36,909 nt of DNA from Acidobacteriota bacterium (GTDB lineage: Bacteria > Acidobacteriota > Terriglobia > Acidiferrales > UBA7541). A program made the translations under genes and the position numbers. Numbering within the stretch: the first letter of the stretch is position 1; every line of letters begins with the position of its first letter. The stretch spans positions 1 to 36,909 of the forward strand of contig JAKASX010000028.1 in NCBI GenBank assembly GCA_021818865.1, in the 5' to 3' direction. This document shows positions 3,313 through 36,783 of the stretch, in pieces. A model generated the notes under the pieces. That model saw only the letters and a program-made list of their open reading frames with translations, had not been told where the DNA came from and searched no databases.

Positions 3313-4373
3313 TGCGAACTGCGATTTTGAACGGCCAGATGACGGCGGCGGTGCTCTACGGGCCGGAAACGCTGCGCGTGGAGCAGGTGGAAATTCCGAC
3401 GATCGCGCCGGACGAAGTGCTGCTGGAAGTGAAAGTGGCGCTGACGTGCGGCACCGACCTGAAAGTGTGGAAACAAGGGTCGCACCCGCGGATGATCGTG
3501 CCGCCCTCGGTTTTCGGGCACGAGCTGGCGGGGGTGGTTTGCGAGGTTGGCGAAGCGGCTCCGGACGGGATCCGAGTGGGAATGCGGGCGGTGCCGTCGA
3601 ATTCGGCTCCATGCGATGAATGCTTTTTCTGCCGGCGCGGACAGCAGAACCTGTGCGAAGACCTGCTGTTCAACAACGGCGCTTACGCGCAATACATCCG
3701 GATTCCCGGGCGAATCGTGCGGAAGAACCTGCTGGAGCTTCCCGACCACGTTTCGTTCGCCGACGCGGCGCTGGTCGAGCCGCTGGCGTGCGTTTTGCGC
3801 GGGATCGACGAGATGGAAGTGGCACCGGGCGACACGGCGGTGGTGATCGGCTGCGGGCCGATCGGGTTGATGTTCGTGCGTATGCTGGCGGCGCGCGGCG
3901 CGCGGGTGCTGGCGATCGGCAAGCGCAAGAGCCAGAAGAAAGCGGCCGAGCGAATGGGCGCGCGAGCGGCTTTCGACGTGAACGAGGAACCGGACCCGGT
4001 GCGCGTGGTGAAGCAACTGACCGAAGGCGGGCGCGGCGCCGACGCGGTGATCGAAGCGGTGGGCAAGCCGGCGACCTGGCAGTGGGCGGTGGGAATGGCG
4101 CGGCGCGGCGCGACGGTGAACCTGTTCGGCGGGTGCCCGAAGGGATCGGAAGTGCGGCTGGACCCGGCGGCGCTGCACTACTCGGAAATCACGTTGAAAT
4201 CCACGTTTCATCACAGCCCGCGCTTCATTCGGGAGTCGCTGGACGCGGTGGCACGCGGCGAAATTTCCGCGGCCGATTTCGTGACCGGCGAGATCGCGCT
4301 GGCCGATCTGCCGAGCGCGTTCGAGCACATGAAGAACCGCAACGGCGAATTGAAGACCGCGGTGATCCCCTAA
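3312..4373 (+). CDS. Second zinc-dependent alcohol/polyol dehydrogenase (MDR family)
   Basis: A 353-residue paralogue of the preceding dehydrogenase. The catalytic zinc ligands are Cys46 in TCGTD and His70-Glu71 in GHE; the structural cysteines are at 101, 104, 107 and 115; a GCGPIG loop binds the dinucleotide near residues 178-183. The ATG at 3312 shares its A with the TGA of the upstream gene (TGATG), a strong sign of coupled translation and possibly of a two-subunit enzyme. A TTG one codon earlier is possible but unlikely. The two proteins are divergent rather than a recent duplication. Substrate unknown; a role in reducing the hopanoid side-chain aldehyde or sugar is proposed from context only. 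Confidence 0.85.
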   Translation: MRTAILNGQMTAAVLYGPETLRVEQVEIPTIAPDEVLLEVKVALTCGTDLKVWKQGSHPRMIVPPSVFGHELAGVVCEVGEAAPDGIRVGMRAVPSNSAPCDECFFCRRGQQNLCEDLLFNNGAYAQYIRIPGRIVRKNLLELPDHVSFADAALVEPLACVLRGIDEMEVAPGDTAVVIGCGPIGLMFVRMLAARGARVLAIGKRKSQKKAAERMGARAAFDVNEEPDPVRVVKQLTEGGRGADAVIEAVGKPATWQWAVGMARRGATVNLFGGCPKGSEVRLDPAALHYSEITLKSTFHHSPRFIRESLDAVARGEISAADFVTGEIALADLPSAFEHMKNRNGELKTAVIP

Positions 4374-4441
4374 CGTTCTTTGACGGCCGCGCGCAAGGCG
4401 AGGCGTGCAGCTTGGTTGCCCCGACGAGGTCTTTTCGAAGC

Positions 4442-5416
4442 GTGACCACCCCTACCGAATCTCCGGAGCGGACCGGCTCGGCTGCGGAGCAGGCGCGACG
4501 GCTCGCCATCGCGGAACACCTGCCGGCCGACGGCTGCTCGCTCGAAACGGCGCGGGCCTACACGAGCTGGCTGGCGCGAAACCATTACGAAAATTTCCGC
4601 GTGGCGACGTGGCTGCTGCCGCGGCGGTTGCATCAGGCGTTTTATGACGTGTATGCGTATTGCCGGTGGTCGGACGATCTGGGCGACGAAGTGGAGGATC
4701 CGAGCGCGGCGCTGGCGCTGCTCGATTGGTGGGAGGGGGAATTCGAGCGGGGACTCGAAGGACGGGCGCGGCATCCGGCGATCGTTGCACTGGCGCGCAC
4801 GATCCGCGAACACGATTTGCCGGCGCAGCCGTTTCGCGACCTGCTGCGGGCGTTCCGGCAGGACCAGAGCGTGACGCGGTATCCGGATTGGGAAAGCCTG
4901 CTGGACTATTGCCGGTATTCGGCGAATCCGGTGGGGCGATTGGTACTGGCGCTGGGCAGCTACCGCGACGAGGAACGGCAACGGCTTTCCGATTTCATTT
5001 GCAGCGGACTGCAGCTGGCGAATTTCTGGCAGGACGTTTCGCTGGACTGGCGGAAAGGGCGGATTTACATTCCGCTCGACCGGCTGGCGGCGCACGGGCT
5101 GGGCGAAGCGGACATCGCGCGCGGGCGATTCGACGAGCGGTATGCGGCGCTGATGCGGGAGTTGGTGGGACGGACGCGGAAGCTATTCGAGCAAGGCAAG
5201 CCGCTCGCGGGGATGGTTTCGCCGGGATTGCGCGTGGATATCGAACTCTTCGGCGCGGGAGGGGTGGCAGTGCTGGACGCGATCGAGCGAATCGGGTTCA
5301 ATACGCTCGAACGCAGACCGGTGGTGGGAAAAGCGACGCAGATGCGGTTGCTGGCGAAGGCGCTGGCCGGGCGCTGGCTGGGCGGCGGAGACGCCCGAGC
5401 CGGACGCGTGGCGTGA
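4442..5416 (+). CDS. hpnC: HpnC, hydroxysqualene synthase
   Basis: A squalene/phytoene synthase-fold protein of 324 residues from GTG 4442. HpnC converts presqualene diphosphate to hydroxysqualene. The first Asp-rich motif is SDDLGDE (Asp78, 79, 82) and the second is QDVSLDW (Asp198, Asp202), followed by KGRIYIP, all typical of trans-isoprenyl head-to-head synthases. The family core begins around residue 35 (LETARAYTSWLARNHYENF), so the exact start does not affect function. An in-frame TTG 30 bases upstream is an alternative, and neither start has a strong ribosome-binding site. It is followed three bases later by hpnD. Confidence 0.92.
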   Translation: MTTPTESPERTGSAAEQARRLAIAEHLPADGCSLETARAYTSWLARNHYENFRVATWLLPRRLHQAFYDVYAYCRWSDDLGDEVEDPSAALALLDWWEGEFERGLEGRARHPAIVALARTIREHDLPAQPFRDLLRAFRQDQSVTRYPDWESLLDYCRYSANPVGRLVLALGSYRDEERQRLSDFICSGLQLANFWQDVSLDWRKGRIYIPLDRLAAHGLGEADIARGRFDERYAALMRELVGRTRKLFEQGKPLAGMVSPGLRVDIELFGAGGVAVLDAIERIGFNTLERRPVVGKATQMRLLAKALAGRWLGGGDARAGRVA

Positions 5417-5419
5417 GCG

Positions 5420-6391
5420 ATGGCCGCGCCGCTCGAAAGTTCCTACGAATATTGCCGGGACGTGGCGCGGCGCGAAGCGCGGAATTTTTACTACGGATTC
5501 TTGCTGCTGCCGCGAGAGAAGCGTCTGGCGATGTGTGCGCTGTACGCGTACATGCGGCGCGTGGACGATCTGGCTGACACGCCGGGTGAAACGGTGATGA
5601 AACGGCGGCGCCTGGCGGAATGGCGCGAGCAAACCGAGCGGCGATTGGGCGGCGGCGCGGGCGAGAAGGCGAGTTCGCGGGAAGACGCGGACGATTCGGG
5701 AGCGGGACGGCTGTGGCCGGCGCTGCTCGATACGATGGCGCGCTACCGGATTCCGCCACGCTACCTGTTAGACGTGGTGACGGGCGCGGAAATGGATTTG
5801 GAAGGGCGCGTCTACCGCGATTTTGACGAGTTGCGCGAGTATTGCTATCACGTGGCCGGAGCGGTGGGACTGGTGACGGTGCACGTTTTCGGTTTTCGCG
5901 ACGAGCGAGCGCCGGAACTGGCCGAGCGGATGGGCATCGCCTTTCAGCTCACCAACATTTTGCGGGATCTGGGGCAGGATTATGGAGACGGGCGCGTGTA
6001 CCTGCCGACGGAGGATTTCGAGCGCTTCGGCTGCCGTAGCGGGGAACTGGGGCGGAAGGCGGCGCCGGTGGGCGCTCTGCTCGAGATGCTGCGATTCGAG
6101 GCGCGACGAGCGTGGGAATTTTACGAGCAGGCGTGGGGGCTGGTCGGGCTGGTGAACGAAGACAGCCGGCGGGCGCTGTGGGCGCTGGCGCGGATTTACA
6201 GCGGGCTGCTCGAGGAGATCGAGCGGCGCGGATTCGACGTCTTTTCGTCGCGGGTGCGGCTGCGGGCGACGGAAAAGGCAGCGATATTTCTTTGGGCGAA
6301 AGTCGGCCCGGCGGGAGCGTATGAGTTCGAGCAGCGCGATCGTAGTTGGCGGGGGCTTGGCGGGGCTCTCCTGCGGCATCGCGCTCGCTGA
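5420..6391 (+). CDS. hpnD: HpnD, presqualene diphosphate synthase
   Basis: A 323-residue squalene/phytoene synthase family enzyme that condenses two farnesyl diphosphates into presqualene diphosphate. The first motif is RVDDLAD (Asp49, 50, 53), and the second is NILRDLGQD (Asp183, Asp187) followed by GDGRVYLP. A hydrophilic insert of about 18 residues (near 78-97, rich in Gly, Glu, Asp, Ser) separates helices. The C-terminus runs about 25 residues past the usual family end because the frame continues through the start of hpnE, giving a 71-base overlap. ATG 5420 lies three bases after the hpnC stop. Together HpnD, HpnC and HpnE make squalene. Confidence 0.93.
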   Translation: MAAPLESSYEYCRDVARREARNFYYGFLLLPREKRLAMCALYAYMRRVDDLADTPGETVMKRRRLAEWREQTERRLGGGAGEKASSREDADDSGAGRLWPALLDTMARYRIPPRYLLDVVTGAEMDLEGRVYRDFDELREYCYHVAGAVGLVTVHVFGFRDERAPELAERMGIAFQLTNILRDLGQDYGDGRVYLPTEDFERFGCRSGELGRKAAPVGALLEMLRFEARRAWEFYEQAWGLVGLVNEDSRRALWALARIYSGLLEEIERRGFDVFSSRVRLRATEKAAIFLWAKVGPAGAYEFEQRDRSWRGLGGALLRHRAR

Positions 6392-7733
6392 AGCGGGCTG
6401 GCGCGTGCGGCTGTATGAGAAGCGGCCGCATCTGGGCGGGAGGGCGGCTTCGTACACGCTGCCTGACGGCACGGAAATTGACAATTGCCAGCACGTGACG
6501 CTGGGTTGCTGCACGAACCTGGACGATTTCTACGGTCGGGTGGGTGCGCGGGAGAAGATCCGGTTTTTCGACTATTTGGCGTTTGCCGACGCGAGCGGGC
6601 GGATTTCACGGATGCGCGCGGCGGCTTTGCCGGCTCCGCTGCATCTGGCGCTGGCTTTCGTGCGACTGGGCGGCTTGCGGGCGGGAGAGAAATGGGCGAT
6701 CGCGCGAGCGCTGAATGAAATTCTGCGAAGCGGCGGGCGGCCGAGCGACGCGCGTGGGATCACGATGCTCGAATGGCTCGAGCGGCGACGGCAGCCTGCG
6801 GGGGCAATCGCGAATTTCTGGCGGCTGGTGCTGGTGAGCGCGCTCGACGAGGAACTGGACCGCGCCGAGGCGCAATACGGCATCGACGTTTTCTGGAAAT
6901 CGTTTCTGGTAAATCGCGCGGGATTCCGGATGGGCGTGCCGGCGGCGCCATTGGGAGAACTTTACGAAGGCTGCCGCAAGGCGCTCGAACGGCGGGGAGG
7001 GGAAATCCGGACGCGGGCGCGGGTGGCGAGGTTTCGCATCGAACAGGAGCGCGTTGGGGCGCTGGCGTTCGAGGACGGAAACGAGGAGATTGCAGACGCG
7101 TACGTGGCGGCGGTGCCGCACGGGGCGCTGCTGGAGATGCTGCCGGCGGAACTGGTGGAACGAGAGCCGGTGTTTGGGAACTTGCGGCGATTGCAAGCTT
7201 CGCCGATTACCGGCGTGCATCTGTGGTACGACAGGACGGTGACGGAGGAGCCGTTTCTGGCGCTGATGGGCCTCGAGAGCCAGTGGATTTTCAATAAAAC
7301 GGCGCTGCTGAATCCGGCGCCCGCGCCGCCAAACGAATCGGCGAAACAGTACCTGCAAGTGGTGATCAGCGCGTCCTACGACCTGGTGAGCGAGTCGCGG
7401 CAGGAGATCATCGAGCGGGCGCGGAAAGAAATGGAGTTGGTGCTGCCGGCGGCGCGGGAGGCGCAGGTGGTGAAGGCGACGGTGGTGAAGGAGACGGCGG
7501 CGACGTTTTCGCCGGCGCCGGGCGTGGACCAGTGGCGGCCCGAAAGCCAGAGCCCGATTGGACAACTTTTCCTCGCCGGGGACTGGACGCGGACGGGCTG
7601 GCCTGCCACAATGGAGGGTGCTGTCCGGAGCGGATATCTGGCCGCCCAGGCTGTTTTGAATCTTGCGGGTCAGCACCGCACTTTCCTCCAGCCCGACTTG
7701 CCAGCCGAGGGATTTGTGCATTTGTGGAGTTGA
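6321..7733 (+). CDS. hpnE: HpnE, FAD-dependent hydroxysqualene reductase (squalene-forming)
   Basis: A 470-residue flavoprotein of the phytoene desaturase/amine oxidase superfamily. The FAD-binding GGGLAG is at residues 10-15, followed by the LGGRAAS signature around 38-44. The C-terminal FAD motif is LFLAGDWTRTGWPATMEGAVRSG (start near residue 418). HpnE reduces hydroxysqualene to squalene, completing the HpnCDE route to the cyclase substrate. The ATG at 6321 lies inside the hpnD end, so translation is probably coupled. It is the last gene of the operon; a GC-rich stem-loop lies 21 bases after its stop. Confidence 0.93.
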   Translation: MSSSSAIVVGGGLAGLSCGIALAEAGWRVRLYEKRPHLGGRAASYTLPDGTEIDNCQHVTLGCCTNLDDFYGRVGAREKIRFFDYLAFADASGRISRMRAAALPAPLHLALAFVRLGGLRAGEKWAIARALNEILRSGGRPSDARGITMLEWLERRRQPAGAIANFWRLVLVSALDEELDRAEAQYGIDVFWKSFLVNRAGFRMGVPAAPLGELYEGCRKALERRGGEIRTRARVARFRIEQERVGALAFEDGNEEIADAYVAAVPHGALLEMLPAELVEREPVFGNLRRLQASPITGVHLWYDRTVTEEPFLALMGLESQWIFNKTALLNPAPAPPNESAKQYLQVVISASYDLVSESRQEIIERARKEMELVLPAAREAQVVKATVVKETAATFSPAPGVDQWRPESQSPIGQLFLAGDWTRTGWPATMEGAVRSGYLAAQAVLNLAGQHRTFLQPDLPAEGFVHLWS

Positions 7734-17843: not shown

Positions 17844-17918
17844 AGGGGCGTAGCTCAGTGGTAGAGCAGCGGCCTTTTAAGCCGAAGGTCGTGGGTTCGA
17901 TCCCCACCGCCCCTACCA
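17844..17918 (+). tRNA. tRNA-Lys (anticodon UUU)
   Basis: A 75-base cloverleaf with CCA encoded. The acceptor stem AGGGGCG pairs with CGCCCCT; the D arm is GCTC/GAGC; the anticodon loop is CTTTTAA, giving anticodon TTT; the T arm GTGGG-TTCGATC-CCCAC is perfect. The top pair of the anticodon stem is a G-A mismatch. The integrase gene on the opposite strand ends only 13 bases after the CCA, so the 3' half of this tRNA is the probable attachment site of the island. Confidence 0.95.
17887..17918. other. Probable attachment site (attL) at the tRNA-Lys 3' end
   Basis: Tyrosine integrases usually recombine at the anticodon or T arm and 3' end of a tRNA, regenerating the gene. The integrase at 17931-19094 abuts this tRNA, so the crossover should lie in the T arm/acceptor segment. 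I found no second copy of the T-arm plus acceptor sequence by eye in the rest of the window, so attR is probably to the right of 36909 or has been lost. Exact core limits are unknown. Confidence 0.5.
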
Positions 17919-17930
17919 TCCCAACTCCTT

Positions 17931-19094
17931 TTACATCACGCGATTGTGAGGCCCCTTCTCGCTGCGTACCTGATACGTACCCTTCGTTTCGGCCAAGGCG
18001 ATTGGGTCGAGCGCCCAGGCACGGGCAAGTTGGGCTTCCAATTGTTGCTGCCGCTCGCCCACCCACGGCGCATAATGCCGCTCGGTGATTCGAAGACTGG
18101 AATGGCCTAAAAGCACTGACAATTGCTCGAGCGTTCCGCCGGCCAGCAGAAATTCAACCGCGAACGTGTCGCGAAAGCGGTGAGCGTGCCCTTTGGGGAC
18201 GCCAGCCAATTGGAAGAGCCTCGCGAGTCGGCGCTGCCATTTGCCTATGACGCTATGGACAGTTGAACGCCCAGTCCAGAAAAAGTGTCGGTCGCTTCCA
18301 CGCGGGCAGGCGTCGAGTGCTTCCGCGACAAATTTTGGGAGCAGAACGTTGACCGGCTGACCCGTCTTTTGAGTGTAGAGAAACAGGCGGTCTCCGACGA
18401 TCCGCTCCGTTGTCAACTGCGCCGCATCCCCGATACGCATCCCGCTGTAGCGTAGCAACAGAACGAAGGCTCGAAGGCGCTGGCCGTTTCGCGCTCCCGC
18501 ACTTGCGGAATACGTTTCAAGGGCTTCGAGGATTTGCCGCATCTCGTCGCGCGTGAAAGGCAGTGTCGGGGAGGGCGGAATCTTGGGAGCTTTCAGGTCG
18601 GCAGCGGGATTGTCGGCAATCCACTTGCGTTTCTGCGCGAATCGAAAAAATGCCCGCAGCCGCTCCAACTGCTTGAGCCCAGTTCGTGGCCCGCACTTCC
18701 ACTGGGATCGGAAATCGCTCAACACGTCCAGATCGAATTGATCCATGAACGCGAGCCCGCCGTGCTGCTCGGCAAAGGCCTCCATCTTCCGGCGCAGCAA
18801 TTTGTATTTTTCGACCGTGGCGGGTTGAAGCTTTCGAGCCTCGGCGTCGGCCAGGAACCGCTCCCAAGCTTCCTTCACCGTCATACGTCGAGGTTGATCG
18901 TCCCGTTGTCCTGCCGCTTCCCACTGCCTGACCAAATCTTGCGCCCTCTGCCAATCGCGCATGTCGAGCGACTGCCTGATTTCCCTCCCGTTCAGCGTGC
19001 CGTCCACCCAGATGGGACACTGGCAGCGCCGGTAGTGGCGGCCCTCATCCCGGTGCTCGCAGCGTTTCAAGTGACGGCGATAGACGGTTAACAT
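17931..19094 (-). CDS. Tyrosine recombinase / integrase
   Basis: A 387-residue phage-type integrase. The catalytic set is complete: Arg220 (YSGMRIGD), Lys243 (QKTGQP), His305-x-x-Arg308 (HRFRDTFA), His331 (LLGHSS) and the nucleophile Tyr341 (RHYAPW). A SAM-like core-binding domain covers about 70-165. The first 45 residues carry Cys12, Cys24 and Cys26 with CQCPIWVDG, an arm-binding region common in acidobacterial integrases. The ATG at 19094 is used. It lies at the tRNA-Lys junction and ends a minus-strand series with an excisionase-like gene, an unknown gene and an XRE repressor, so it is the integrase of the island. Confidence 0.93.
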   Translation of the reverse strand: MLTVYRRHLKRCEHRDEGRHYRRCQCPIWVDGTLNGREIRQSLDMRDWQRAQDLVRQWEAAGQRDDQPRRMTVKEAWERFLADAEARKLQPATVEKYKLLRRKMEAFAEQHGGLAFMDQFDLDVLSDFRSQWKCGPRTGLKQLERLRAFFRFAQKRKWIADNPAADLKAPKIPPSPTLPFTRDEMRQILEALETYSASAGARNGQRLRAFVLLLRYSGMRIGDAAQLTTERIVGDRLFLYTQKTGQPVNVLLPKFVAEALDACPRGSDRHFFWTGRSTVHSVIGKWQRRLARLFQLAGVPKGHAHRFRDTFAVEFLLAGGTLEQLSVLLGHSSLRITERHYAPWVGERQQQLEAQLARAWALDPIALAETKGTYQVRSEKGPHNRVM

Positions 19095-21108: not shown

Positions 21109-21684
21109 CTGACGGAATCGCGTTTGAACGAAATGTGCGGAAAACCTGACTGAGGGAGCGCCCTTTAGCGGTGCAAAACGCGTCTCGATTCGTGAGGCGC
21201 TATTTCTGGCCCGCCTACCGTACGTACCCTGATATTTGCGTTCCGCCACGGACCTGCAAACGTCCGCAGCGGACGTCCTGGGGGCCGAAATACCGGGGCC
21301 GGGCCGGTCCAAACCGGACGCAAAAGCGGTCCCCGGCGGGCCTTCCGCGAAATTTTACCGAAAAATTGTCCGCCTGCGTGGGCCAGGGAGGACGCGGCGG
21401 GTCCTCCTCTCGCTCGCGGTAAAACGGCGGGCCCTCAACGGCGCTCTCGATCCGCAACGTGGTTTCGGTATCTTAGGTTGCGGTCCAAACCCAGTCAACG
21501 CGCTGAAGGGTTAGGAAACAGAGAGCCCCAAAGTTGCACCCCCCTACATGTTGTGGTTGGCGCGGAACGGGGCGGACGAAGCGGGCACAAGGGCAAAGGG
21601 AGGGGGAATGGGCGTATAATTCGCGGCGTTGTTGAAGACAAAAAGGGAATTGCCGTTCATGTGTATTCCTACAGGGGATGGCGG
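21109..21684 (+). promoter_or_regulatory. GC-rich palindromic gap with a consensus -10 upstream of the repeat protein
   Basis: No gene is supported in these 576 bases. From about 21230 to 21450 the sequence is unusually GC-rich and palindromic: GTCCGC-A-GCGGAC (21262-21274), GGACGTCC (21271-21278), and CCGGT-CCAA-ACCGG just after 21300. Near the right end there is a perfect -10 TATAAT (21615-21620) without a good -35. It would start transcription near 21627, supporting ATG 21685 as the start of the next gene. A minus-strand open frame here (21215-21457) has only a TTG start and no ribosome-binding site. Confidence 0.4.
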
Positions 21685-24600
21685 ATGAACTCCGGCGACA
21701 GTGGGCGGCGCGCGTTGCACTTTGTTCTTGGACTCGCCGTGGCTCTGTTGATACTTGTGCCCGCCCTGGCACAACCGAAATCAGAAGGGTCTGCCAGAGT
21801 TGAGGGGGCGGTAAGAGGAGTTGTGGGAGTACCTGTCACGGTTCGCCTGCTGCCCGTTGGTGGCAGCCCTGTGCGCTATTACGACGGCTACCAGGTCGTA
21901 GCGCAACAAAATGGCAAGTTTGACTTCACGAACATTAAGCCGGGAGCTTATCGGCTGGCGGCGAAAGCGGACGGCTTTATGCTTGCCACGCCAGGCAAAG
22001 GGGCTGACATAATCATCACGTTGCGCGCTCATCAGAAGCTTCGAAGGGTCACAATCAGGATGGTCCCCCGTCCCTCGCTCTGTGGGCGCGTGAGGGGAAG
22101 GTTTAGGCACACCTGGGTGGACGCTTTCCGCTACAGTAAAAAGTTCGGTACGCTCATCGACACTTTCCTCCCCGCCACAAACGCAGATGGCAGTTTCTGT
22201 TTTGCAAACCTTCCTTTCGGGACTTACTACCTTCAAGCCTATACGACCTGGTATCCAGGTTCGTTTAGCTTCAGTGGCGCAAAGCCGTTGGTAGTAAAAC
22301 CAGGCAGGACGCAGCGCACTCTCGACATTCCGCTCCAGCCGAGTGACTGCTGGACATCCAAAGTGAGCGGGCGCATCGCGCCCTCACCGACCAACGATCA
22401 TCAGGAATACTATGTGGATTTTCTCCAAACCAATGCGAATGGCGGCAGCGTGTTTGACCCCGAGCCAACCATCAGACTTGCGCCGGGAGACAGATTTACT
22501 GCTTCCCTATGCCCCGGCGACTATGATGTGGTGCTAAGCGACCGGGATAGGATCTCAGCGTGGCGAGGGCATCCTTCGCATAAGGTAGTTTTTGACTCTC
22601 AGCATGTCACAGTTGGACAAAGGGATATTACCGGTGTCGCATTGACGCCCCACTCTATGGCGTCGATTACAGGTGAAGTTCACTTCGAGGATATTACGCG
22701 AGCTGCGAGTTGCCCTGGCATTGGCGGCCAGCACGTGAGCATTCTTCGGGAAGGCGATGGCCAATATCAGACCGCGCCCCTGGACGACAAAGACCATTTT
22801 GAGTTTCACAATGTGGCGCCGGGGATTTATCGGATTTATCTCGCTCCCTTCCTGCGCGAAGCCGTCTACGTAAAATCCATCCTGGTGGATGGAAAAGCCG
22901 CCGAAGGCCGCCGTTTTGCGATAACGCGGGCGAAGCCGGTAAGGATCGACATAACGCTGAGCGGCGACCTGGCGGAAGCCGCAGGCCATATCTCGCCCGA
23001 CCTGCGCCGCGTGCATCGCTGGGCGGTTGCGTGGACCCGGCCCAAAGGCAGCGTCAGCGGGAAGGTTGAGGGCGATACAGTCGGTGTCTCGATTGAGCTT
23101 CGTTCGGCGCGCTACAACTCACAGAATTCTGCCGAATACACAACCGATCTCGGCCCCAAAGGCAGTTTTCGTTTCAATGACGTCGATCCCGGCGTGTACA
23201 CATTGCGAGCAGAAGGCAAGGACTCGTTCGAGTATGAATACGGTGCCAAGGGTCTGGATAAAAAGGGTACGCCGATTGTCGTCGCGCGTGGTGCGCACAT
23301 AAAGGGAGTTCGCCTGAAGCTGCCGAAGCTGAGCTCGATCTGCGGCGAAGTTACCGACGCGAATGGCTCTCCGAAGGCTGGAACACCCGTCTATATTGAG
23401 ACTTCCTATTACGGATACCTGCAGGCACGCCAAGAGACGGGTGAGGCGAGGACCGATGCCGAGGGCCGATTCCGCGTGAACGGGCTTTTGCCGGGCGACT
23501 ACTACCTGGCATTTCCCTTCGGACATCGCCTGGTCTTTTTTTCCAGCGATGGCAGCCTGGATGCAGCCCGGCCGGTCCGTCTGCATATAAACGAGGATGT
23601 TGGCTGCCGGCCGCAAGCCATCCTAAGGCTTCGCGTACCCCCGGGAATCAAAGAGACCTACACGATTTCCGGCCAAGTGGTGGGGGAGTTGGCGTCGAAG
23701 CTTGGAGACCGCTTCTGGGTTTCCCTGTGGTGGGATGTCCCGCATACGGAGGCGTATGTTGCCTCTGCCAACCTTGACAAAGAAAACCGTTTTTTCTTCG
23801 ATAAAGTGCCGAACGGCCGATTCATGCTTCAGCTTCACAGTGGATACGGGCCCAAACCGATGGTCTGGTCGGGCCAATACGGCCCGCTGTCTCACCTTTT
23901 GGCAACGCGAACTGTCGAGGTGCGAGGCAGGGACGTTGTCGGGGTCAAAGTCAAGTCCATGGAACTGCCCACCATAACGGGCAGCGTGCGCTTCCTGCAC
24001 GTACCCGCCGATTGGAAGCACTTTGATGTGAGCGCGTACCACATTAGGTTGCTTCGGCGCAACAATCAGCAACCTCTTTCCGCGAGGCTCTCCGCAAACG
24101 GCAGCTTCAGTATCGGCCCGGAGGATATCGGCAACTACGAAGTCAACCTGTATCCTCCACCGCGTGTGCCGTTATACATCCGCTCTGTCCGGCTGAACGG
24201 GCAGGAGATTCAAGGGCGTTATTTCCATTTGTCGGCGCAAGCAACCGCCCTGCTTGAGGTGGAAGTCGACGACGATTCCGGACGCGTGGATGCAACGCTG
24301 CTTCCCGACCCATCGATGCCCCGTCCGGAGCCGCCGGTGGGGGAACCCTGCGGGGGTCTTTCACTGGTCAAAAACCGCCTTCTTTTGGCTTTGCCGGAGC
24401 CCCAGATCGTACTCTTTCCGGAGCCCCTCTTCCCGACAAGGACCACCCCGGCTTCGTCGGTCGAGCCAAGGCTGTTCTTTAGCTATCGTGTGAGTGACGG
24501 CCACCGTACCTGGCTGCAGATAAGCCGCGTGCCGCCTGGACGCTATCGGGTACTAGGGGCGGAGCATCTGACGTCTTTCATTGTTGGACGGACACGCGAT

Positions 24601-24786
24601 CTGACCGTCGATGAGCGCAGGCTCTGGAGTGCTCTTGCTGCGCTCGGCCAACCGCTGACTGTGCGGCCCGGGGCAAAACTCCAGATCGCTCTGCAGGACA
24701 AGAGCGCGGAGGTAGCGCGTCTCGCCGCGAGATTTGGCGTGCGGATTGGTAGTGGGGTACTTAAGGTGAGAGAGGGTTCCATGTGA
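21685..24786 (+). CDS. Large secreted protein with many carboxypeptidase-regulatory-like repeats
   Basis: A 1033-residue exported protein. The N-terminus MNSGDSGRRALHFVLGLAVALLILVPALAQ is a signal peptide cleaved after about residue 30. The rest is a chain of at least seven beta-sandwich repeats of the CarboxypepD_reg/SdrD-B type, each with the pattern 'G-x-F-x-F-x-N/D-x-x-P-G-x-Y-x-L', for example GKFDFTNIKPGAYRLAAK, GSFRFNDVDPGVYTLRAE and GRFRVNGLLPGDYYLAF. There is no TonB-dependent barrel or anchor at the C-terminus. Proteins like this are common in acidobacteria and are thought to be surface or extracellular, perhaps binding carbohydrates. The start at 21685 has AGGGGA upstream and follows a TATAAT; the frame is open further 5'. 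Its presence inside the island is unusual cargo. Confidence 0.8.
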   Translation: MNSGDSGRRALHFVLGLAVALLILVPALAQPKSEGSARVEGAVRGVVGVPVTVRLLPVGGSPVRYYDGYQVVAQQNGKFDFTNIKPGAYRLAAKADGFMLATPGKGADIIITLRAHQKLRRVTIRMVPRPSLCGRVRGRFRHTWVDAFRYSKKFGTLIDTFLPATNADGSFCFANLPFGTYYLQAYTTWYPGSFSFSGAKPLVVKPGRTQRTLDIPLQPSDCWTSKVSGRIAPSPTNDHQEYYVDFLQTNANGGSVFDPEPTIRLAPGDRFTASLCPGDYDVVLSDRDRISAWRGHPSHKVVFDSQHVTVGQRDITGVALTPHSMASITGEVHFEDITRAASCPGIGGQHVSILREGDGQYQTAPLDDKDHFEFHNVAPGIYRIYLAPFLREAVYVKSILVDGKAAEGRRFAITRAKPVRIDITLSGDLAEAAGHISPDLRRVHRWAVAWTRPKGSVSGKVEGDTVGVSIELRSARYNSQNSAEYTTDLGPKGSFRFNDVDPGVYTLRAEGKDSFEYEYGAKGLDKKGTPIVVARGAHIKGVRLKLPKLSSICGEVTDANGSPKAGTPVYIETSYYGYLQARQETGEARTDAEGRFRVNGLLPGDYYLAFPFGHRLVFFSSDGSLDAARPVRLHINEDVGCRPQAILRLRVPPGIKETYTISGQVVGELASKLGDRFWVSLWWDVPHTEAYVASANLDKENRFFFDKVPNGRFMLQLHSGYGPKPMVWSGQYGPLSHLLATRTVEVRGRDVVGVKVKSMELPTITGSVRFLHVPADWKHFDVSAYHIRLLRRNNQQPLSARLSANGSFSIGPEDIGNYEVNLYPPPRVPLYIRSVRLNGQEIQGRYFHLSAQATALLEVEVDDDSGRVDATLLPDPSMPRPEPPVGEPCGGLSLVKNRLLLALPEPQIVLFPEPLFPTRTTPASSVEPRLFFSYRVSDGHRTWLQISRVPPGRYRVLGAEHLTSFIVGRTRDLTVDERRLWSALAALGQPLTVRPGAKLQIALQDKSAEVARLAARFGVRIGSGVLKVREGSM

Positions 24787-25928: not shown

Positions 25929-26552
25929 TCAGTCACTTGCGGCCTCCCCGCCGGGGGAGATTTTTAAACGCCCCTTGCGGGCTGCGTAAAGGGCCGTGGC
26001 GGGGCTTACGCCTAGGGCCGCCCCTACCGCCCGCCAGGACGCCCCCTGCGCCCGTAGGCGGCCTATTTCGGCCGGGTCCACGCCGCTAGCCGGGCGGCCT
26101 AGCCGCTTGCCCTTGGCGCGGGCGTTGCGTAGCCCGGCCCGTACCCGCTCAGCAATCAGGTTGCGTTCAAGCTCGGCCACGGCCCCAAGGACAGTGAAAA
26201 TCATCTTGCCCGTGGGCGTGGTGGTATCCACCTGCTCCGTAAGGCTGACGAATTCGATTCCAAGCGAGCGGAAGGTTTCCAAGGCGCGCAGCAGGTGCGA
26301 CACCGAGCGGGCGAAGCGATCGAAGCGCCAGACGATGACGGCATCGAATTCCCGCCGGTGCGCATCGGCAATCAGGCGATTCAACTCCGGCCGCGAGTCC
26401 TTCGCGCCTGATATGCCCGCGTCCACGTATTCGCCGGCAATGCGCCAGCCTCGCCGCTGGCAGTATTCCCGCAACTCGCGGATCTGCATTTCGGGATTCT
26501 GGCCGTTCGCCGTGCTGACCCGCGCGTAAATGGCCGCCGTCAGAATGGGCAT
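25929..26552 (-). CDS. Serine recombinase, resolvase/invertase type
   Basis: A 207-residue small serine recombinase. The nucleophile is Ser13 in YARVSTANGQNP, and the active-site arginines are in VWRFDRFARS (Arg76, Arg79, Arg82). The long E helix covers AVAELERNLIAERVRAGLRNARAKGKRLGRP, and the C-terminal helix-turn-helix (about 155-192, with EIGRLRAQGASWRAVGAALGVSPATALYAAR) binds the site. It may resolve or invert DNA of its own element. ATG 26552 has a GGGGGG site upstream. It is not the tRNA integrase, so it points to a second, nested mobile unit. Confidence 0.92.
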   Translation of the reverse strand: MPILTAAIYARVSTANGQNPEMQIRELREYCQRRGWRIAGEYVDAGISGAKDSRPELNRLIADAHRREFDAVIVWRFDRFARSVSHLLRALETFRSLGIEFVSLTEQVDTTTPTGKMIFTVLGAVAELERNLIAERVRAGLRNARAKGKRLGRPASGVDPAEIGRLRAQGASWRAVGAALGVSPATALYAARKGRLKISPGGEAASD

Positions 26553-26887: not shown

Positions 26888-27109
26888 TCAACGTTTCCGC
26901 TTCTTCCTCCCCCGGCCCCGGCAGTACGTTGCCTGCTTTACCTGCCGCAGCCGTTCGAGGTCTTGCACGGTCCAAAGCCGCACCGCCCGCCCGTGGCGAA
27001 TCCGCAGGGCGGGGGCCTTTACGCGGCGCGCGGCAATCCACCGCTGCAAGGTGATAGGCGAAATACCCGCCTTACGGGCCGCCATGGCGGTAGGCACGGC
27101 TTTAACCAT
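26888..27109 (-). CDS. MerR/excisionase-like helix-turn-helix protein
   Basis: A 73-residue basic protein with an N-terminal winged helix-turn-helix (AMAARKAGISPITLQRWIAARRVKAPALRIRHGRAVRLW, about residues 8-46), then a helix and a highly basic tail (GRGRKKRKR). This is the HTH_17 / Xis type used by mobile elements. There is no Shine-Dalgarno before ATG 27109, but a good promoter lies just upstream, so the mRNA may be leaderless. It heads the minus-strand cassette with the small protein, the recombinase and the phosphatase. Confidence 0.75.
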   Translation of the reverse strand: MVKAVPTAMAARKAGISPITLQRWIAARRVKAPALRIRHGRAVRLWTVQDLERLRQVKQATYCRGRGRKKRKR

Positions 27110-27317: not shown

Positions 27318-29771
27318 TCAGGATGATTCCGGCTGCTCGTCCGTGCTACCTTCACCGTGTGCTGAGCGCCCTTCAAGCGTCTTGATTGCCCCCTCACGAA
27401 CTTCTAGTAATTCCGATTTCATTTCCTCGATAACTTGCACCCTCAAGTGATCAATCCTGCCCGAAAGGCCATTACAGATTCTTCTAGCGGTATCGCGTTC
27501 CCCTCTAGTTGACACTCGGACCTGATCCGTCAGAAAACACCCCAAATGTATACCCAATAGAAGGCGTAGATCAGAAGGTTTGAATTTCCGGAGCACACGC
27601 TCTGCAGTATCCAAGGCCCCGCTCTCAATGAGGCCGACGATTACCCAAAATGTCCTGATGTCCTTTGCATCCGACGGCAGGTCAGTTCTATCCCACTTGT
27701 CTAAGACCTCTTGAAGACGGCTTTCCAACACGGCGAGAGCGGCCGAATCCCGCCCGAGCAGGTAATATAGAAGAAAAGGCATTATCTGAAGCCGCCCTTC
27801 TTTCGCATGCCCCGCCAGGAATTCATCTTTGGCATTCGCCATACCGTCCACAATCCACCCATAAATATCTATCTTGTCCTTTACCTCAGCAAGGTAACAG
27901 GCCTGTAAGCTCAGCCCCAATGTCAGTGCTGCATTGAAGTTATCTACGACCGCCATTCCCTGAAGTGCACCAATAGCAGATCGCAAGGCCTCGGTCCCGT
28001 CAGGATGCTCTCCAAAATAGAATACAATCGCTCTCCGCCACCATGGGTCGCTAATGACAGTATGGAGGTAATCAGCGGATGGAATACCTCGCCCGGCGAA
28101 AAATTCCTGCATCATTAGATGGCGAAACTCAATGGTGGAACCCACCACCATGAACAGACCGGACCGATTGAGTATTTCATCGTGCAACTGCTCCCTTTCT
28201 GCAGTGAGGCCCCGATTCTCAAGCTCACTCTTGAGAATCTCGTCAAACCGTTGTATTGGTATTGTCGTCGCTCTCCCCTTGTGCATCTCGAACGCTACCC
28301 TGGTTAAGAGGAAATCCTTCAAAGGGGCGTGATACTGGTGTTTGAAACCCTTTGTCGCGTCCCAACGTCCAAGCATCATTTCCGTGAATTTCTTAAACAA
28401 CTCAGTGATATTTGCGGGAATGTCCTGCCTAGAGTACTCGCTTGTTGCAGCAAATATGGTTACAAGTAATGGGTTCAGTTCCATCCCGTGAACTTCCTCT
28501 AGCCGACGGACAAGTTCCTGACTCCTTTCAGGGGACAGGTTTCTACCCTTTTGAAGGGTCCTGATTATTTGTTGTGCTTGTTTGTAGTTAATCGGGCTCA
28601 GAGTGTATTTCTCAAAGTCTCTCAAAGTGCTGAGGCTTTGACCCGAGTCATACTCACGAGAGGTAACCACAACCGTGCACCCTGGATATGTTCTGTGGAA
28701 CTGACCGATTAGAGAAAGCACCGACAGGCGGCCATCACTTGACGGCACTTCGTCCAAAGCATCCACAAAGATGAACACCCTACCCGCAACAAGGTCTTCG
28801 CTAGAGAAGGCGCTCTTCGACGAGTTCGTTAGCCTCTTCGTCGCGGCATCGCATGCCGCCACTAAAGAACGAGTCGGGTCGGCTGCGATTTCTGGCGCTC
28901 TAAGCAAAACGGGAATCGCGGGCCTCTCTTCCGACTCAAATTTGAGACCCTTTGTTGCAAGCAGATAAGCAAGGTGCTTAAGAGCTGTGGACTTCCCGGA
29001 CCCGGCACTGCCAAACATGACAACAAGCCTACCATGCTTTCCAAGTATTCCTGTTATAGGCATCTGCTCGAAATGAGGGATTTTGGCAACTTGGCCCTTT
29101 TGTTTCTTGAGCTTCAGTGCCATGCGGTAGAGTTGAAGCATTACAAATCCTTGGTCGGTTGCTACACCAACCTGCGAATCGCGAGGTAAGAGGTCGGCCA
29201 TCGCTAAAGTGTCATCCGAATTCTCGATCATCCGTTTGAGCGCGCGGAAGTAAGGAGCAATATCTGCATCTATACCGAGCCAGAGCTCTGGGAAGAGCTC
29301 GTCAATCTTAGGAATCAACTCGTCTGAATCCAGAAACACTAGTCGAGGGTCATGAAGCTCTTGGGCGATGTGGTGTCGGGCTGCTTCGTTTATCTTGCCG
29401 CTGACACAGAGGATAACCTTGGCGGGCAGTTGCTTCTTCTTAGACTTGATAAGGGTGATTTTTGTTTCCGCGGCCGTCCTAAGCTGAGTCACGGCTTCCA
29501 GGAGGTTGGCGTGTGCCTTCCTTGCGAGGTTGATATTGCCTTTCTTGGTCTGAAGAACGTAGATGTCTTCTATCCCTAGCTTGTCAGGCGAAATGAATAG
29601 AGCATCCTTGCCTTTCTCGTCGGGACCGCATAGGTCTCTACCGTCGGTCAGTCCCTGCCGGAGGAAAAGAGGACGAACTACTTCATCGCGAAAGCAGTCT
29701 TCGGACATCTGCAAAAGAAAGCGATATTTCTTGAATCGGGAGATAGTTTCGGGTCTAGAAATCTCACCCAT
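27318..29771 (-). CDS. NACHT-type STAND NTPase with N-terminal PD-(D/E)xK nuclease-like domain (probable phage defence)
   Basis: An 817-residue protein. Residues about 15-155 look like a restriction-endonuclease fold: CFRDEVVRPLFLRQGL, a GKDALF Asp (about residue 56) and a VLQTKKG strand with the Q-x-K pair (about 74-76), followed by KVILCVSG. The NACHT ATPase follows: Walker A FGSAGSGKST (Lys about 260), Walker B FIFVDALDE (Asp about 337) and the sensor VVVTSRE (about 368-374). The last 350 residues are helical and probably sense the trigger. Known bacterial NACHT/Avs-type proteins use this design for anti-phage defence: sensing, oligomerisation, then nuclease activity. ATG 29771 is preferred, with GGAGG 10 bases upstream; GTG 29780 lies too close to it. 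Composition is more AT-rich than the chromosome. No partner gene is adjacent. Confidence 0.85.
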   Translation of the reverse strand: MGEISRPETISRFKKYRFLLQMSEDCFRDEVVRPLFLRQGLTDGRDLCGPDEKGKDALFISPDKLGIEDIYVLQTKKGNINLARKAHANLLEAVTQLRTAAETKITLIKSKKKQLPAKVILCVSGKINEAARHHIAQELHDPRLVFLDSDELIPKIDELFPELWLGIDADIAPYFRALKRMIENSDDTLAMADLLPRDSQVGVATDQGFVMLQLYRMALKLKKQKGQVAKIPHFEQMPITGILGKHGRLVVMFGSAGSGKSTALKHLAYLLATKGLKFESEERPAIPVLLRAPEIAADPTRSLVAACDAATKRLTNSSKSAFSSEDLVAGRVFIFVDALDEVPSSDGRLSVLSLIGQFHRTYPGCTVVVTSREYDSGQSLSTLRDFEKYTLSPINYKQAQQIIRTLQKGRNLSPERSQELVRRLEEVHGMELNPLLVTIFAATSEYSRQDIPANITELFKKFTEMMLGRWDATKGFKHQYHAPLKDFLLTRVAFEMHKGRATTIPIQRFDEILKSELENRGLTAEREQLHDEILNRSGLFMVVGSTIEFRHLMMQEFFAGRGIPSADYLHTVISDPWWRRAIVFYFGEHPDGTEALRSAIGALQGMAVVDNFNAALTLGLSLQACYLAEVKDKIDIYGWIVDGMANAKDEFLAGHAKEGRLQIMPFLLYYLLGRDSAALAVLESRLQEVLDKWDRTDLPSDAKDIRTFWVIVGLIESGALDTAERVLRKFKPSDLRLLLGIHLGCFLTDQVRVSTRGERDTARRICNGLSGRIDHLRVQVIEEMKSELLEVREGAIKTLEGRSAHGEGSTDEQPESS

Positions 29772-29867
29772 TTGGGCCACGCCTCCTGAAAGGCGGATTG
29801 CCAGGCATTCTTACTACCGCCATGTGCCTGTGCTGGAACATACGCCTGTTGACATGGAAGTGCAAGA

Positions 29868-29885
29868 AGTGTCCACATGGACACT
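29868..29885. promoter_or_regulatory. Perfect palindrome upstream of the NACHT gene
   Basis: AGTGTCC-ACAT-GGACACT is a 7-bp perfect inverted repeat about 95 bases before the NACHT start. On the minus strand a weak promoter lies just downstream: TTGCAC, a 17-base spacer and TATGTT. This placement fits an operator for a repressor or activator of the defence gene. No regulator gene is adjacent. Confidence 0.45.
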
Positions 29886-32079: not shown

Positions 32080-33759
32080 TCAGAAAGGCCGGGGGATTGG
32101 ATTAATACCAGCGTTGCGAGCCTTCTGAATGTCGATCATCATGTATCGCGGATTTCTTCCGAGGTTCGGGCCGACCTCCTGGTTGAATTCCTGATTTCCT
32201 ACTTGCACGGCATACAGGAATTCCTTCCACGATGCAGTCGCGCCTATCTGGTAAAGCGGGCCGAACGGCAAGTTGAGAGGCATCGGTCCTTGGCCAACCA
32301 AAGTCGTTTCGAGAAATCGAGGCTCCCGGTGCTGGGGGTCGAGATAATAGCCTACGAATGCATGGTCCGGCAGGATTACCAGTAGAGGATCGATGCCAAT
32401 CTTGTAGAGTGCAGAAGCGAAGAGAACGGCCCCGTCGATGCAATTGGCCTGTTGATCGCTGATGCTCTGGTCTAGAAATCTAACAGTTTGCGATAGGACG
32501 CGCCCATCCGGCTTCCCAACGGATACCCATCCCCAGGGCGATTCCGCCGAGGCCGTCGCGGTACTTGAATAATGGATGCGGCGTCGTTGCAGGACGTTCC
32601 AGATGGCGAAGACTTGGGCTTCTACACCCTGCGGCCCGCCCTGATAGCCGTCGAATTGATTTACAGCATGGACGGAGAGCGCTTGCTGGAGCAGGGACTG
32701 GATGAATGGATCGTTCTCATCCACGAACCCCGCAAAGAGTTCGCTAATATTATCGACTTGCCCTGAGCGGAACTGGATTGCAAAGGGGACATCGTTGACA
32801 GAGTGGACCTGGATTGAGATTGTCTTTTGCTCTTCGCCCTGTCCGTCCACCGCCACTGAGTATTCAACGGTTGTCGGATAGGATTCGGGTATCCTCGCCA
32901 GCTTGCCCGTTTCGTACCGAATTGTAGGGTAGACGTAATAGTGTTGCCCCGGTTGATCGAGGGTCGCGCTCAGCGTGCTCATGCGCGACAGTCCATCAAT
33001 CCGTATTCCCACCTTCACTTGCTCGCCAGCGGTTTCACACAGTACTGTGACCCCGGCCATGCCTATTGGGTCCCCGAAATAGTTGGCCGGGGTGTTTTGA
33101 GCGAGTCGGGCTGCATTCCCTTCGAGTTCCAAAACGACCGAGGGGTAGAACTGTCCATCGAAGTCGAAGACCGGGTGCCAAGGTGTTTCTTCACTCTGGC
33201 CAGGGGAAATTTCGCCAGAGCCTATTGCAGTCGGTCTCTGGGGACTGTGAACGAAGGTAGGCCCCTGAGCTGGTTGTAGGCTCGGTCCGGTGGGCGAGGA
33301 AGGAGCGGTCACTTGAGTAGGTTCAGGGGTCGGTATACTCATTGCTCCGGCCGTGCCCGTAGTATGATTGTTGCCGGTTGCAGCGTGGGTGGCGCGTACA
33401 TTTGTTTCTGTAGCCACCCAACGAGCTATCCGCGAAGGGGAAACACGGGGGCTGGGTGTTGGCGTGGTTTTTCTTATCGGCTTTGCTTCTACCATTGTCA
33501 TGATCACAGCGTCTGATACACGTGCGTCCTTCAAGGCGACGAGAGCTTGAGGGCTGGTATCAAAGTCGCTCGGCGAGCGCTTTATCTTGGCGATGATGAC
33601 ATTCGTGGGAATGCCCGCTTTAGACATCAGAACGATGTCAGCATTGGTGAGGACAGTGTGCTTGGGTTTTTGTGCGGCGGCATTACAAGGGAGGAAGAAC
33701 AGGACAGCCATCAACGTGCCGAAAATCGCAAGTTGCCGCTTAAACGAAGTGTGGTGCAT
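32080..33759 (-). CDS. Secreted protein with transglutaminase-like Cys-His-Asp domain
   Basis: A 559-residue exported protein. The signal peptide covers about residues 1-29 (LAIFGTLMAVLFFLPCNAAAQ). Residues 36-90 (LTNADIVLMSKAGIPTNVIIAKI...FDTSPQALVALKDARVSDAVIMTM) form a helical motif repeated in many acidobacterial secreted proteins. A Pro/Thr/Ser-rich linker follows (95-195). The C-terminal part (about 430-480) has the triad of a transglutaminase-like fold: Cys440 in NCIDGAVLFASALYKIGI, His466 in PDHAFVGYY and Asp474. It may be a protease or cross-linking enzyme in the periplasm. ATG 33759 has GAGGA five bases upstream. Confidence 0.7.
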   Translation of the reverse strand: MHHTSFKRQLAIFGTLMAVLFFLPCNAAAQKPKHTVLTNADIVLMSKAGIPTNVIIAKIKRSPSDFDTSPQALVALKDARVSDAVIMTMVEAKPIRKTTPTPSPRVSPSRIARWVATETNVRATHAATGNNHTTGTAGAMSIPTPEPTQVTAPSSPTGPSLQPAQGPTFVHSPQRPTAIGSGEISPGQSEETPWHPVFDFDGQFYPSVVLELEGNAARLAQNTPANYFGDPIGMAGVTVLCETAGEQVKVGIRIDGLSRMSTLSATLDQPGQHYYVYPTIRYETGKLARIPESYPTTVEYSVAVDGQGEEQKTISIQVHSVNDVPFAIQFRSGQVDNISELFAGFVDENDPFIQSLLQQALSVHAVNQFDGYQGGPQGVEAQVFAIWNVLQRRRIHYSSTATASAESPWGWVSVGKPDGRVLSQTVRFLDQSISDQQANCIDGAVLFASALYKIGIDPLLVILPDHAFVGYYLDPQHREPRFLETTLVGQGPMPLNLPFGPLYQIGATASWKEFLYAVQVGNQEFNQEVGPNLGRNPRYMMIDIQKARNAGINPIPRPF

Positions 33760-34820: not shown

Positions 34821-35687
34821 TCAGGCTGCTTCGTCCTCTTCGGCCCTCCCCCGGGGGAAGCGGATACGACCTGCGAGCCAATCGCCGACGCTGCGTTGAA
34901 CGATTTTCTTGAGTGGTGGAATGTCGGCGTCTTTCATCGGCGTCAAGAAGGTTTTCTCGATATATGCGCGCTCTTGCGCTGCGAACTGTTTCAACGTGTC
35001 CTGCAACCCGTACTGCTGCACACTCTGTCTGAGCCCCATCGCTTTCAATACTTCGCCAGCTGTTAGCCCCATCGTCTGGATGTGAAGCTCCTTGAACAGC
35101 AATTCCTTAAATGGATCAAAGTCGGCGTAACGGCGTATATGGTTAAGTCTTGTGAACGGCACTTCTGCCCCGCTGAGTTGCGCCTCAATCCTAGTCAGAC
35201 AGTCTCCCGGCAAGTAAATCGTGGCCATGGGCTCTGCGTCCTTACGCATCTTCGCCAAACGGTCGTAGACCACGAGTTTCTTGAGCCGCGAAAATACTGG
35301 GTAGAAACTGTAATTTCCACGGGACCGATACAAGGCGATGTTTTGTCGGCGAGGAACTCGGCAGTTCCTGATGAAAAAGTCTACATCAGTGCCCAGCAAA
35401 TCAACTGCTAGGTCGATCCTATAAATTCTGAGGATATCAAGATTAGAAAATATCTCCTGTAGAACTTCCCGAGTGCGGGGCCACCCCAGTCGTGCGACGC
35501 CGATCATTTCGACTTTATGAATGCGAGTCCGTCGGCCGCGATAATACAGTCTTGCAGGAAGTGCGGTATCGGTAGAGCGCAGGTCGAGAACTTTTTCATA
35601 TCCTGCTTTCGGCGTTCCCTGGTCAATCGCCAAATCGGCAAAGTGGTCTTGGATGGAAGAGCTTAGCACTGTCAACTTATCGATCAT
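34821..35687 (-). CDS. Rolling-circle Rep_trans-like replication initiator (putative)
   Basis: A 288-residue protein from ATG 35687, where AAGGA gives the best start; an ATG 27 bases upstream lacks one. Landmarks recall the replication initiation factor (Rep_trans/MobT-like) family: RIYRIDLAVDLLG, a central beta segment with YRSRGNYSFYP, KKLVVYDRLAKM (matching the family's 'YDK' motif) and TRIEAQLSG. The C-terminal third is helical and charged. Such proteins nick an origin to start rolling-circle replication or mobilisation of excised elements. The catalytic Tyr cannot be assigned from sequence alone. It fits an island that can replicate after excision. Confidence 0.55.
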   Translation of the reverse strand: MIDKLTVLSSSIQDHFADLAIDQGTPKAGYEKVLDLRSTDTALPARLYYRGRRTRIHKVEMIGVARLGWPRTREVLQEIFSNLDILRIYRIDLAVDLLGTDVDFFIRNCRVPRRQNIALYRSRGNYSFYPVFSRLKKLVVYDRLAKMRKDAEPMATIYLPGDCLTRIEAQLSGAEVPFTRLNHIRRYADFDPFKELLFKELHIQTMGLTAGEVLKAMGLRQSVQQYGLQDTLKQFAAQERAYIEKTFLTPMKDADIPPLKKIVQRSVGDWLAGRIRFPRGRAEEDEAA

Positions 35688-35823
35688 CGCCTTTCCTTGC
35701 GGTCTGCCGACCATGTATCTGTGAGTGGGCAGGCCAGAGGATAATGTCCATCATCAACTGGCAGGCGGCACAACGATGAAAGTCTGGCAGATGGCGTAAT
35801 CGAAAAGAAGACTGAGGAAAGTA

Positions 35824-36666
35824 CTAACTGCTTGGTGTTACGGTTGCGCCAGAGGTGCGTTCGCCGGACAATGCAGCGATCAGTCTATTGCCGAGTCGTA
35901 TGTGCGACCCTATTGAGACACGGCCAAGATCGGCCCCTTCGTCCTCGAGTGTGCAGGCAACGTATTTTTCTGCAATCTGGGTGGGCGGCAGTCCTGGAGC
36001 GAGCAATCGCCAAGGGCTATTGTGATCGTCTGTGCCAAGGAGTGTGTCGAGGGCTCGCTGCAGAACCTCGCAGGGGAGACGGTTTCCGATTATGGTCCGC
36101 GCTTCTTTGGTGCTGAGGCCGTGCTTCGCTTTTCCTCTTTTTCGTAGAGTGCGGAGCGCTACTTTTAACTCCTTTACTTGTCTAAGCACTTCCGGATAAC
36201 GTCTAGCCGCTCTAAGGGCAATCGCATAATTTGGCTGAGGACCACGAGTGCAGTGAGCCTTCTTCTTGAAAATCTGACGCTCGGCGTCGCCTTTCTGAGC
36301 CGCCCGCACTAATTCGTAGGATTCTTTTATCCAGATGTCCAGAGCTTGCTCGAGGATTCGATGCAGGCATAGCGAAATCCACCGCCCGACGGTCTTTTTG
36401 CCATATGGCATGTTCCAATCCAGCCTCGACAGCGTTTCTTCCCAGCACTTCGGGCTGTCGTCGCACAGTAGGCGTAACGGGACTGATTCCCGCCGTATTT
36501 CGATTGGCACAGGAATACGAAAGACAAATTCGATGGCACTCCCGTCTTCCGCCACCCGCACAGAGCGCTGGGGGTCCTGTCGAAGAAGCAATGATGAAGC
36601 CCCCGCCTCTTCCCCTGTGACGAGCCGCGGAAATCGTTTCTTGGGCACTGGTGGACTCTGCGTCAT
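35824..36666 (-). CDS. Unknown island protein upstream of the Rep-like gene
   Basis: A 280-residue protein from ATG 36666, where GGAGGG lies eight bases upstream; a longer frame to 36756 has no ribosome-binding site. It starts MTQSPPVPKKRFPRLVTG, has a charged middle with a Lys/Arg-rich helix (VLRQVKELKVALRTLRKRGKAKHGLSTKEART) and no membrane segment. I do not recognise a family. It is 136 bases upstream of the Rep-like gene on the same strand, so it may work with it as an accessory initiator or relaxase partner (inference). A TTGACA hexamer on the minus strand at 36747-36742 may be its -35. Confidence 0.55.
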   Translation of the reverse strand: MTQSPPVPKKRFPRLVTGEEAGASSLLLRQDPQRSVRVAEDGSAIEFVFRIPVPIEIRRESVPLRLLCDDSPKCWEETLSRLDWNMPYGKKTVGRWISLCLHRILEQALDIWIKESYELVRAAQKGDAERQIFKKKAHCTRGPQPNYAIALRAARRYPEVLRQVKELKVALRTLRKRGKAKHGLSTKEARTIIGNRLPCEVLQRALDTLLGTDDHNSPWRLLAPGLPPTQIAEKYVACTLEDEGADLGRVSIGSHIRLGNRLIAALSGERTSGATVTPSS

Positions 36667-36783
36667 CTGTCCAACCCTCCGAATTCGACGATGTGACAGT
36701 ACGACACCGCACGGTGGAGGAAAATGGTACTGGTGAGCGATTGTCAAGAAGGGCATAGGGTGCCGCGTGACTGCCAGAGGGGC

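Follow-up and report, generated by a model that had tools for sequence, protein, structure and literature searches.

A candidate bNACHT25-like nuclease–NACHT receptor on a mobile island of an Acidobacteriota genome

The best-described counterparts of the protein reported here are Escherichia coli bNACHT25 (WP_001702659.1; PMC12169576) and bNACHT32 (WP_057688292), members of clade 6 of the bacterial NACHT proteins, in which a PD-(D/E)xK nuclease is followed by a NACHT module and a helical C-terminus. Both proteins protect against phages, and the D48A substitution abolishes both their defence and MS2-induced DNA degradation; bNACHT25 additionally requires the host protein DnaJ (PMC12169576). Two other known systems share part of this design. 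Avs4 has in common the principle of a nuclease, a STAND ATPase and a helical sensor, and DS-8 (NF053861) has a NACHT module but bears a metallophosphatase instead of a PD-(D/E)xK nuclease (PMC13092281).

The window, which is the whole contig of 36,909 bases analysed here from a 3.97-Mb genome, encodes a protein of the same order of domains and of similar length to bNACHT25 and bNACHT32. The nearest characterised protein is bNACHT25, collinear at ~23% identity; this assignment was anchored by an E. coli homologue whose DNA is 100% identical to the gene annotated WP_001702659.1. D59 of the window protein aligns with D48 of bNACHT25, and thus both the architecture and the key mutant have already been published for relatives of this protein (PMC12169576). 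The features of the gene are as follows, with residues in the 820-aa numbering.

27318..29771, minus strand: nuclease–NACHT protein gene, 817 aa from the ATG, or 820 aa if read from a GTG at 29780
29782..29787, minus strand: Shine-Dalgarno-like AGGAGG; 10 nt separate it from the ATG at 29771, but just 1 nt from the GTG at 29780
29271..29723, minus strand: N-terminal Mrr-like PD-(D/E)xK nuclease domain, residues 20-170, from the Mrr_cat match and invariant columns
28557..29030, minus strand: NACHT ATPase domain, residues 251-408 (Pfam NACHT E 4.5e-11, 43.3 bits against a cut-off of 26.7)
28989..29012, minus strand: Walker A, GSAGSGKS (K263), with G260, G262 and K263 invariant
28749..28778, minus strand: Walker B, VFIFVDALDE (D340, D343, E344), conserved in relatives
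28656..28664, minus strand: TSR sensor motif, with R375 invariant
27996..28550, minus strand: helical/winged-helix part of the NACHT module, residues 411-595, where LGRWD and EFF motifs occur
27318..27995, minus strand: all-helical putative sensor, probably diverged NCH1-like, from residue 596, by predicted helices and a profile-profile match
29868..29885, no strand: inverted repeat AGTGTCCA-CA-TGGACACT, 8-bp arms around 2 bp, 96 nt before the ATG

ORF calling gave a single long minus-strand reading frame, 27318-29780, within the interval 27318-29885 that an earlier note had flagged with the strand left unstated; the interval contains the gene and extends upstream to a palindrome. The ATG at 29771 is the likely start, giving 817 residues, because of the spacing of the AGGAGG from it and from the GTG. 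The 820-aa numbering exceeds that from the ATG by 3, so that D59, K79 and K263 correspond to D56, K76 and K260, and the latter numbers, used in the earlier note, are correct for the ATG start. What had been described there as a perfect 7-bp palindromic site is the 8-bp inverted repeat listed above. Such repeats occur in the window at chance level (5 observed, 3.5 expected from shuffling), this one is the sole copy in the genome at up to 1 mismatch, and inspection by eye of the DNA ahead of the Nitrospirales homologue L015 revealed nothing comparable. An operator or recombination site is therefore not supported.

The complete Walker A, Walker B and TSR motifs reported previously are confirmed, and relatives conserve them: across 13 family proteins there is no variation in the Walker A residues, D340 or R375. 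The helical/winged-helix part is 61-64% identical to that of the Nitrospirota homologues, with L470, G471, W473 and D474 invariant. In an AlphaFold2 model of the window protein built from 12 sequences (mean pLDDT 72.5, pTM 0.63), the NACHT part resembles NLRP3, NOD2 and NLRC4 (Z ~24-26, 388-438 residues aligned, rmsd 3.0-4.1), and a model of bNACHT25 found the same structural neighbours at Z ~20-22. Most matches of the PDB fold search were animal NLRs aligned along the NACHT module, and the absence of a nuclease among them therefore says nothing about the nuclease domain.

Full-length, collinear homologues with 49-50% identity were found in two Nitrospirota genomes (L015 and L035), and in a NACHT tree these group with the window protein at 100/100 support. 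No close homologue was found among 396 genomes of the window's own phylum, 399 of its class or four congeners. The protein of L017, a distant relative, also turned up in a genome of that class, which would thus include a Bryobacterales MAG; this suggests that the window's genome belongs to the Acidobacteriota. More distant collinear relatives (~19-24% identity) occur in Enterobacteriaceae, Providencia, Pseudomonas, Gallionellaceae, Bryobacterales, Deinococcus and viral contigs; the search of viral contigs with alignment A1 retrieved 14 relatives, and searches with the two-row alignment A3 or a single protein retrieved none. Between the two Nitrospirota homologues dN is 0.14 and dS is 1.12, with similar restraint across every domain including the C-terminus, indicating that the gene is maintained. 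Between the window protein and L015, identity is 60% for the nuclease and 64% for the helical/winged-helix part, as against 40% each for the NACHT domain and the C-terminus.

The relationship to clade 6 is close in design and distant in sequence. The catalytic Asp of the nuclease and the central NACHT module are shared, as is the occurrence of relatives on mobile elements. In contrast to bNACHT25 and bNACHT32, the window protein shows only ~23% identity, carries QxK at the nuclease site where they have V/I-x-K, has no detectable NCH1 domain (PF22728) and lies in a separate clade: its group is the sister of the NCH1 clade (support 84/81), which is itself supported at 100/99. Since the NCH1 profile is not matched and the tree places the group outside, we do not file the window protein as a clade 6 member. 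The earlier note named Avs, but bNACHT25 and bNACHT32 are much closer known relatives; the Foldseek match to Avs4 (E 4e-7) has a TMq of only 0.21, the solved Avs4 chain is much longer (~1,540 residues), and no Avs profile matched the window protein in a PADLOC scan at E up to 1. Similarly, the DS-8 model in NCBIfam scored 17.6 bits with the window protein and 54.4 with L015 against a curated cut-off of 790, and Pfam gave no metallophosphatase match in the window protein, which places it outside DS-8.

The earlier note had described a helical C-terminus and suggested that it may represent a new type of sensor. The C-terminus is indeed all-helical in the AlphaFold2 model, at low to moderate confidence. 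NCH1 gave no match in the window protein by hmmscan at E up to 1, no candidate passed in a search of the genome at E up to 10, and the domain was likewise undetected in L015 and in L012, the Deinococcus protein, at permissive thresholds; it is present in five relatives, including bNACHT25, at E 1e-36 to 1e-41. Using hhalign, we aligned a profile built from the C-termini of the window group (4 sequences) to one of 12 NCH1-type proteins, and obtained a score of 24.1 (P 0.0078) over 153 columns, with positions 2-162 on 5-163. Among 300 column-shuffled controls, a single profile reached this score (at 30.4) and no alignment extended over 120 columns or more; the reversed profile scored 12, and the C-termini of 14 other NACHT proteins reached at most 18.6 and 40 columns. 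The C-terminal helices of the window and bNACHT25 models, compared on the sequence alignment, coincide in the same order, an agreement that is not fully independent because both models were built from alignments sharing the same proteins. Collinearity at the profile level and the order of helices suggest that the C-terminus is probably a strongly diverged NCH1-like domain, and the trigger may therefore differ from that of bNACHT25. A new type of sensor is thus, if anything, weakly contradicted: the lack of an NCH1 match speaks for novelty, and the collinearity and helix order speak against it.

A less likely reading, to which we still give some weight, is that a module swap has joined the same effector and switch to a C-terminal sensor of unrelated origin. 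It would account for the sharp division between the proteins with no NCH1 match (the window protein, L015 and L012) and the five with strong ones, and for a profile-profile score far under the 175-254 that single divergent NCH1 members reach against the remaining NCH1 proteins; the modest confidence of the model in this region also leaves room for it. However, an unrelated domain would not be expected to match NCH1 over 153 columns at nearly zero offset, at a score that the shuffled profiles and the other NACHT C-termini so rarely or never reach and a number of columns that none of them reaches, nor to keep an identical order of helices, with the caveat on shared alignments given above. We therefore favour the diverged NCH1-like domain.

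The gene was proposed to lie on a mobile island, and the surrounding DNA agrees with this. The relevant features of the window are listed below.

17844..17918, plus strand: tRNA-Lys(TTT), left island boundary, conserved within the genus
17931..19094, minus strand: tyrosine integrase, separated from the 3' end of the tRNA by 13 bp (Pfam Phage_integrase E 1.7e-15, phrog_1 E 3e-44)
25929..26552, minus strand: serine recombinase/resolvase (Pfam Resolvase E 2.3e-50)
26888..27109, minus strand: small MerR/HTH protein (Pfam MerR_1, 22.2 bits, cut-off 21.6), possibly an excisionase

The island is well supported because the integrase adjoins tRNA-Lys, GC content falls from ~0.65 to 0.50-0.55 across the NACHT gene, and in a congener the genes ahead of tRNA-Lys are conserved and the DNA beyond it is different. 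The congener DNA downstream of tRNA-Lys has no convincing counterpart in the window's genome. The right end of the island is not within the contig, which ends at 36909, and the 3' end of the tRNA is not repeated anywhere in the window; an Rfam scan of the window returned the tRNA only. No known defence operon lies next to the NACHT gene in the window. Among other island genes, 21478-24786 (plus strand) encodes a 1102-aa protein with repeated carboxypeptidase-regulatory/Ig-like domains, regarded as cargo. The 559-aa product of 32080-33759 (minus strand) has an apparent signal peptide and a C-terminal half that aligns with positions 41-314 of antiphage_ProA, an NCBIfam model, at E 3.5e-29, far under the model cut-off, and also with DUF3320 proteins on plasmids; a literature search on EruA/ProA returned nothing relevant. 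Genes at 34821-35714 and 35824-36756 (both minus strand) gave no Pfam, PHROG, NCBIfam or PADLOC match. By the look of its sequence the product of the former resembles a putative rolling-circle initiator, for which there was no convincing match among solved structures and none in phages. Outside the island, at 3620-7733 (plus strand), two squalene/phytoene synthase genes precede an amine-oxidase-type flavoprotein gene, an arrangement we take to be that known from hopanoid synthesis.

The relatives, too, occur on conjugative plasmids, in a Rac-like prophage and next to restriction genes. In E. coli LC-1302-2020 the bNACHT25 gene sits among the Rac-like prophage genes recE, racC, ydaE, kilR and sieB, and at megablast sensitivity bNACHT25 is found in 18 of 5,426 complete E. 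coli genomes. In L019 (7373-9677) a relative lies near GmrSD_N and AAA/DUF3696 genes, and in L017 (10490-13618) another lies near a type I restriction HsdR gene. These locations, and the Mrr-type nuclease, would fit competition between mobile elements. The protein might accordingly keep out plasmids and similar elements instead of phages, with a nuclease that acts on foreign DNA as it enters or replicates. We consider this improbable, since the sole tested relatives in the lineage are anti-phage; the proven activity of bNACHT25 and bNACHT32 likewise supports the anti-phage link drawn in the earlier note.

In Nitrospirota the homologues differ from the window copy in belonging to a cassette, found in the same order of neighbours in three genomes, in which the NACHT gene is accompanied by a gene of 311-319 aa without family assignment and by an adjoining N6 DNA methyltransferase gene (N6_Mtase E 9e-24).

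L015, 5639-12452: cassette of these three genes
L061, 3828-10690: cassette of these three genes
L043 (genome G596): cassette with a decayed NACHT gene

The cassette is flanked by two copies of the first ~240 bp of ychF, which are ~95% identical in L015 and 99.6% identical in L061. The downstream ychF copy is a full-length ORF, a truncated copy is also present in G596, and no recombinase was seen inside the flanked cassette. In G596 (L037/L043), the third Nitrospirota genome, the NACHT gene has suffered a 1.5-kb internal deletion that removed residues ~134-640, leaving two pieces in different frames, and the neighbouring gene is retained. The constant pairing with a methyltransferase gene and a second conserved gene raises the idea that the NACHT protein works with or guards a restriction-modification system, but the window copy has no such adjoining genes and defence genes cluster without working together, which makes this clearly improbable. 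We think it somewhat less so, though still doubtful, that the C-terminus is unrelated to NCH1, has its own trigger and was swapped onto a bNACHT25 chassis, with cooperation with the neighbouring methyltransferase system in Nitrospirota.

An N-terminal PD-(D/E)xK region had been proposed from the letters, and this is borne out by the profile search. When the N-terminal 170 residues were scanned alone, Pfam Mrr_cat scored 22.7 bits and so passed its cut-off of 21; on the whole protein it matched residues 25-156 at 17.9 bits, under that cut-off. Scanned in the same way, 10 of 14 family N-termini match, the best at 1.8e-07. E55, G57, D59, K79 and Q99 are invariant across the 13 family proteins, with QxK at residues 77-79. 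In the predicted alpha/beta N-terminus, D59 immediately precedes strand 60-65 and K79 closes strand 71-79 (AlphaFold2). A PDB sequence search with the nuclease alignment gave no match to solved structures. With its profile score above the curated cut-off and its catalytic residues conserved, the domain belongs with the Mrr-type PD-(D/E)xK nucleases, and the occurrence of Mrr_cat and Pfam NACHT in a single ORF supports the nuclease–NACHT fusion suggested before. That the domain is catalytically dead and regulatory, as in the NACHT-associated inactive REase domains (NA-iREase), is very hard to credit: the NA-iREase1 profile weakly matches the N-termini of 3 of 14 relatives (best 6e-05), but the catalytic E55, D59, QxK79 and Q99 are all kept under constraint and the window protein's own domain exceeds the Mrr_cat cut-off.

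The domain architecture, the intact catalytic and ATPase residues, the collinearity with bNACHT25, the purifying selection on close relatives and the island location are all in evidence here, and by analogy the window protein is probably an anti-phage receptor that, like bNACHT25, consists of a single protein. Against this stand the identity of only ~23% to any tested protein, the undetected NCH1 and the lack of a known defence operon beside the gene. For its activity, trigger, oligomerisation and DNA cutting, we infer the following from the relatives. At rest, the NACHT module would keep the protein inactive. The C-terminal helical domain would sense a sign of infection, directly or via a host protein, and in response the NACHT module would open and oligomerise in a nucleotide-dependent manner. 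Oligomerisation would gather the N-terminal Mrr-type domains, which would then cut cellular DNA, phage DNA or both, so that the cell is killed or arrested and the infection is stopped.

New here are a separate, mobile and selected lineage, a sensor missed by profiles and, in Nitrospirota, the association of the gene with a methyltransferase cassette. The nuclease receptors of the bNACHT25 type would thereby extend to a lineage of Acidobacteriota and Nitrospirota whose sensor escapes current models. The same effector and switch combined with differing sensors could reveal which part of the C-terminus sets the trigger, for example the dependence on DnaJ.
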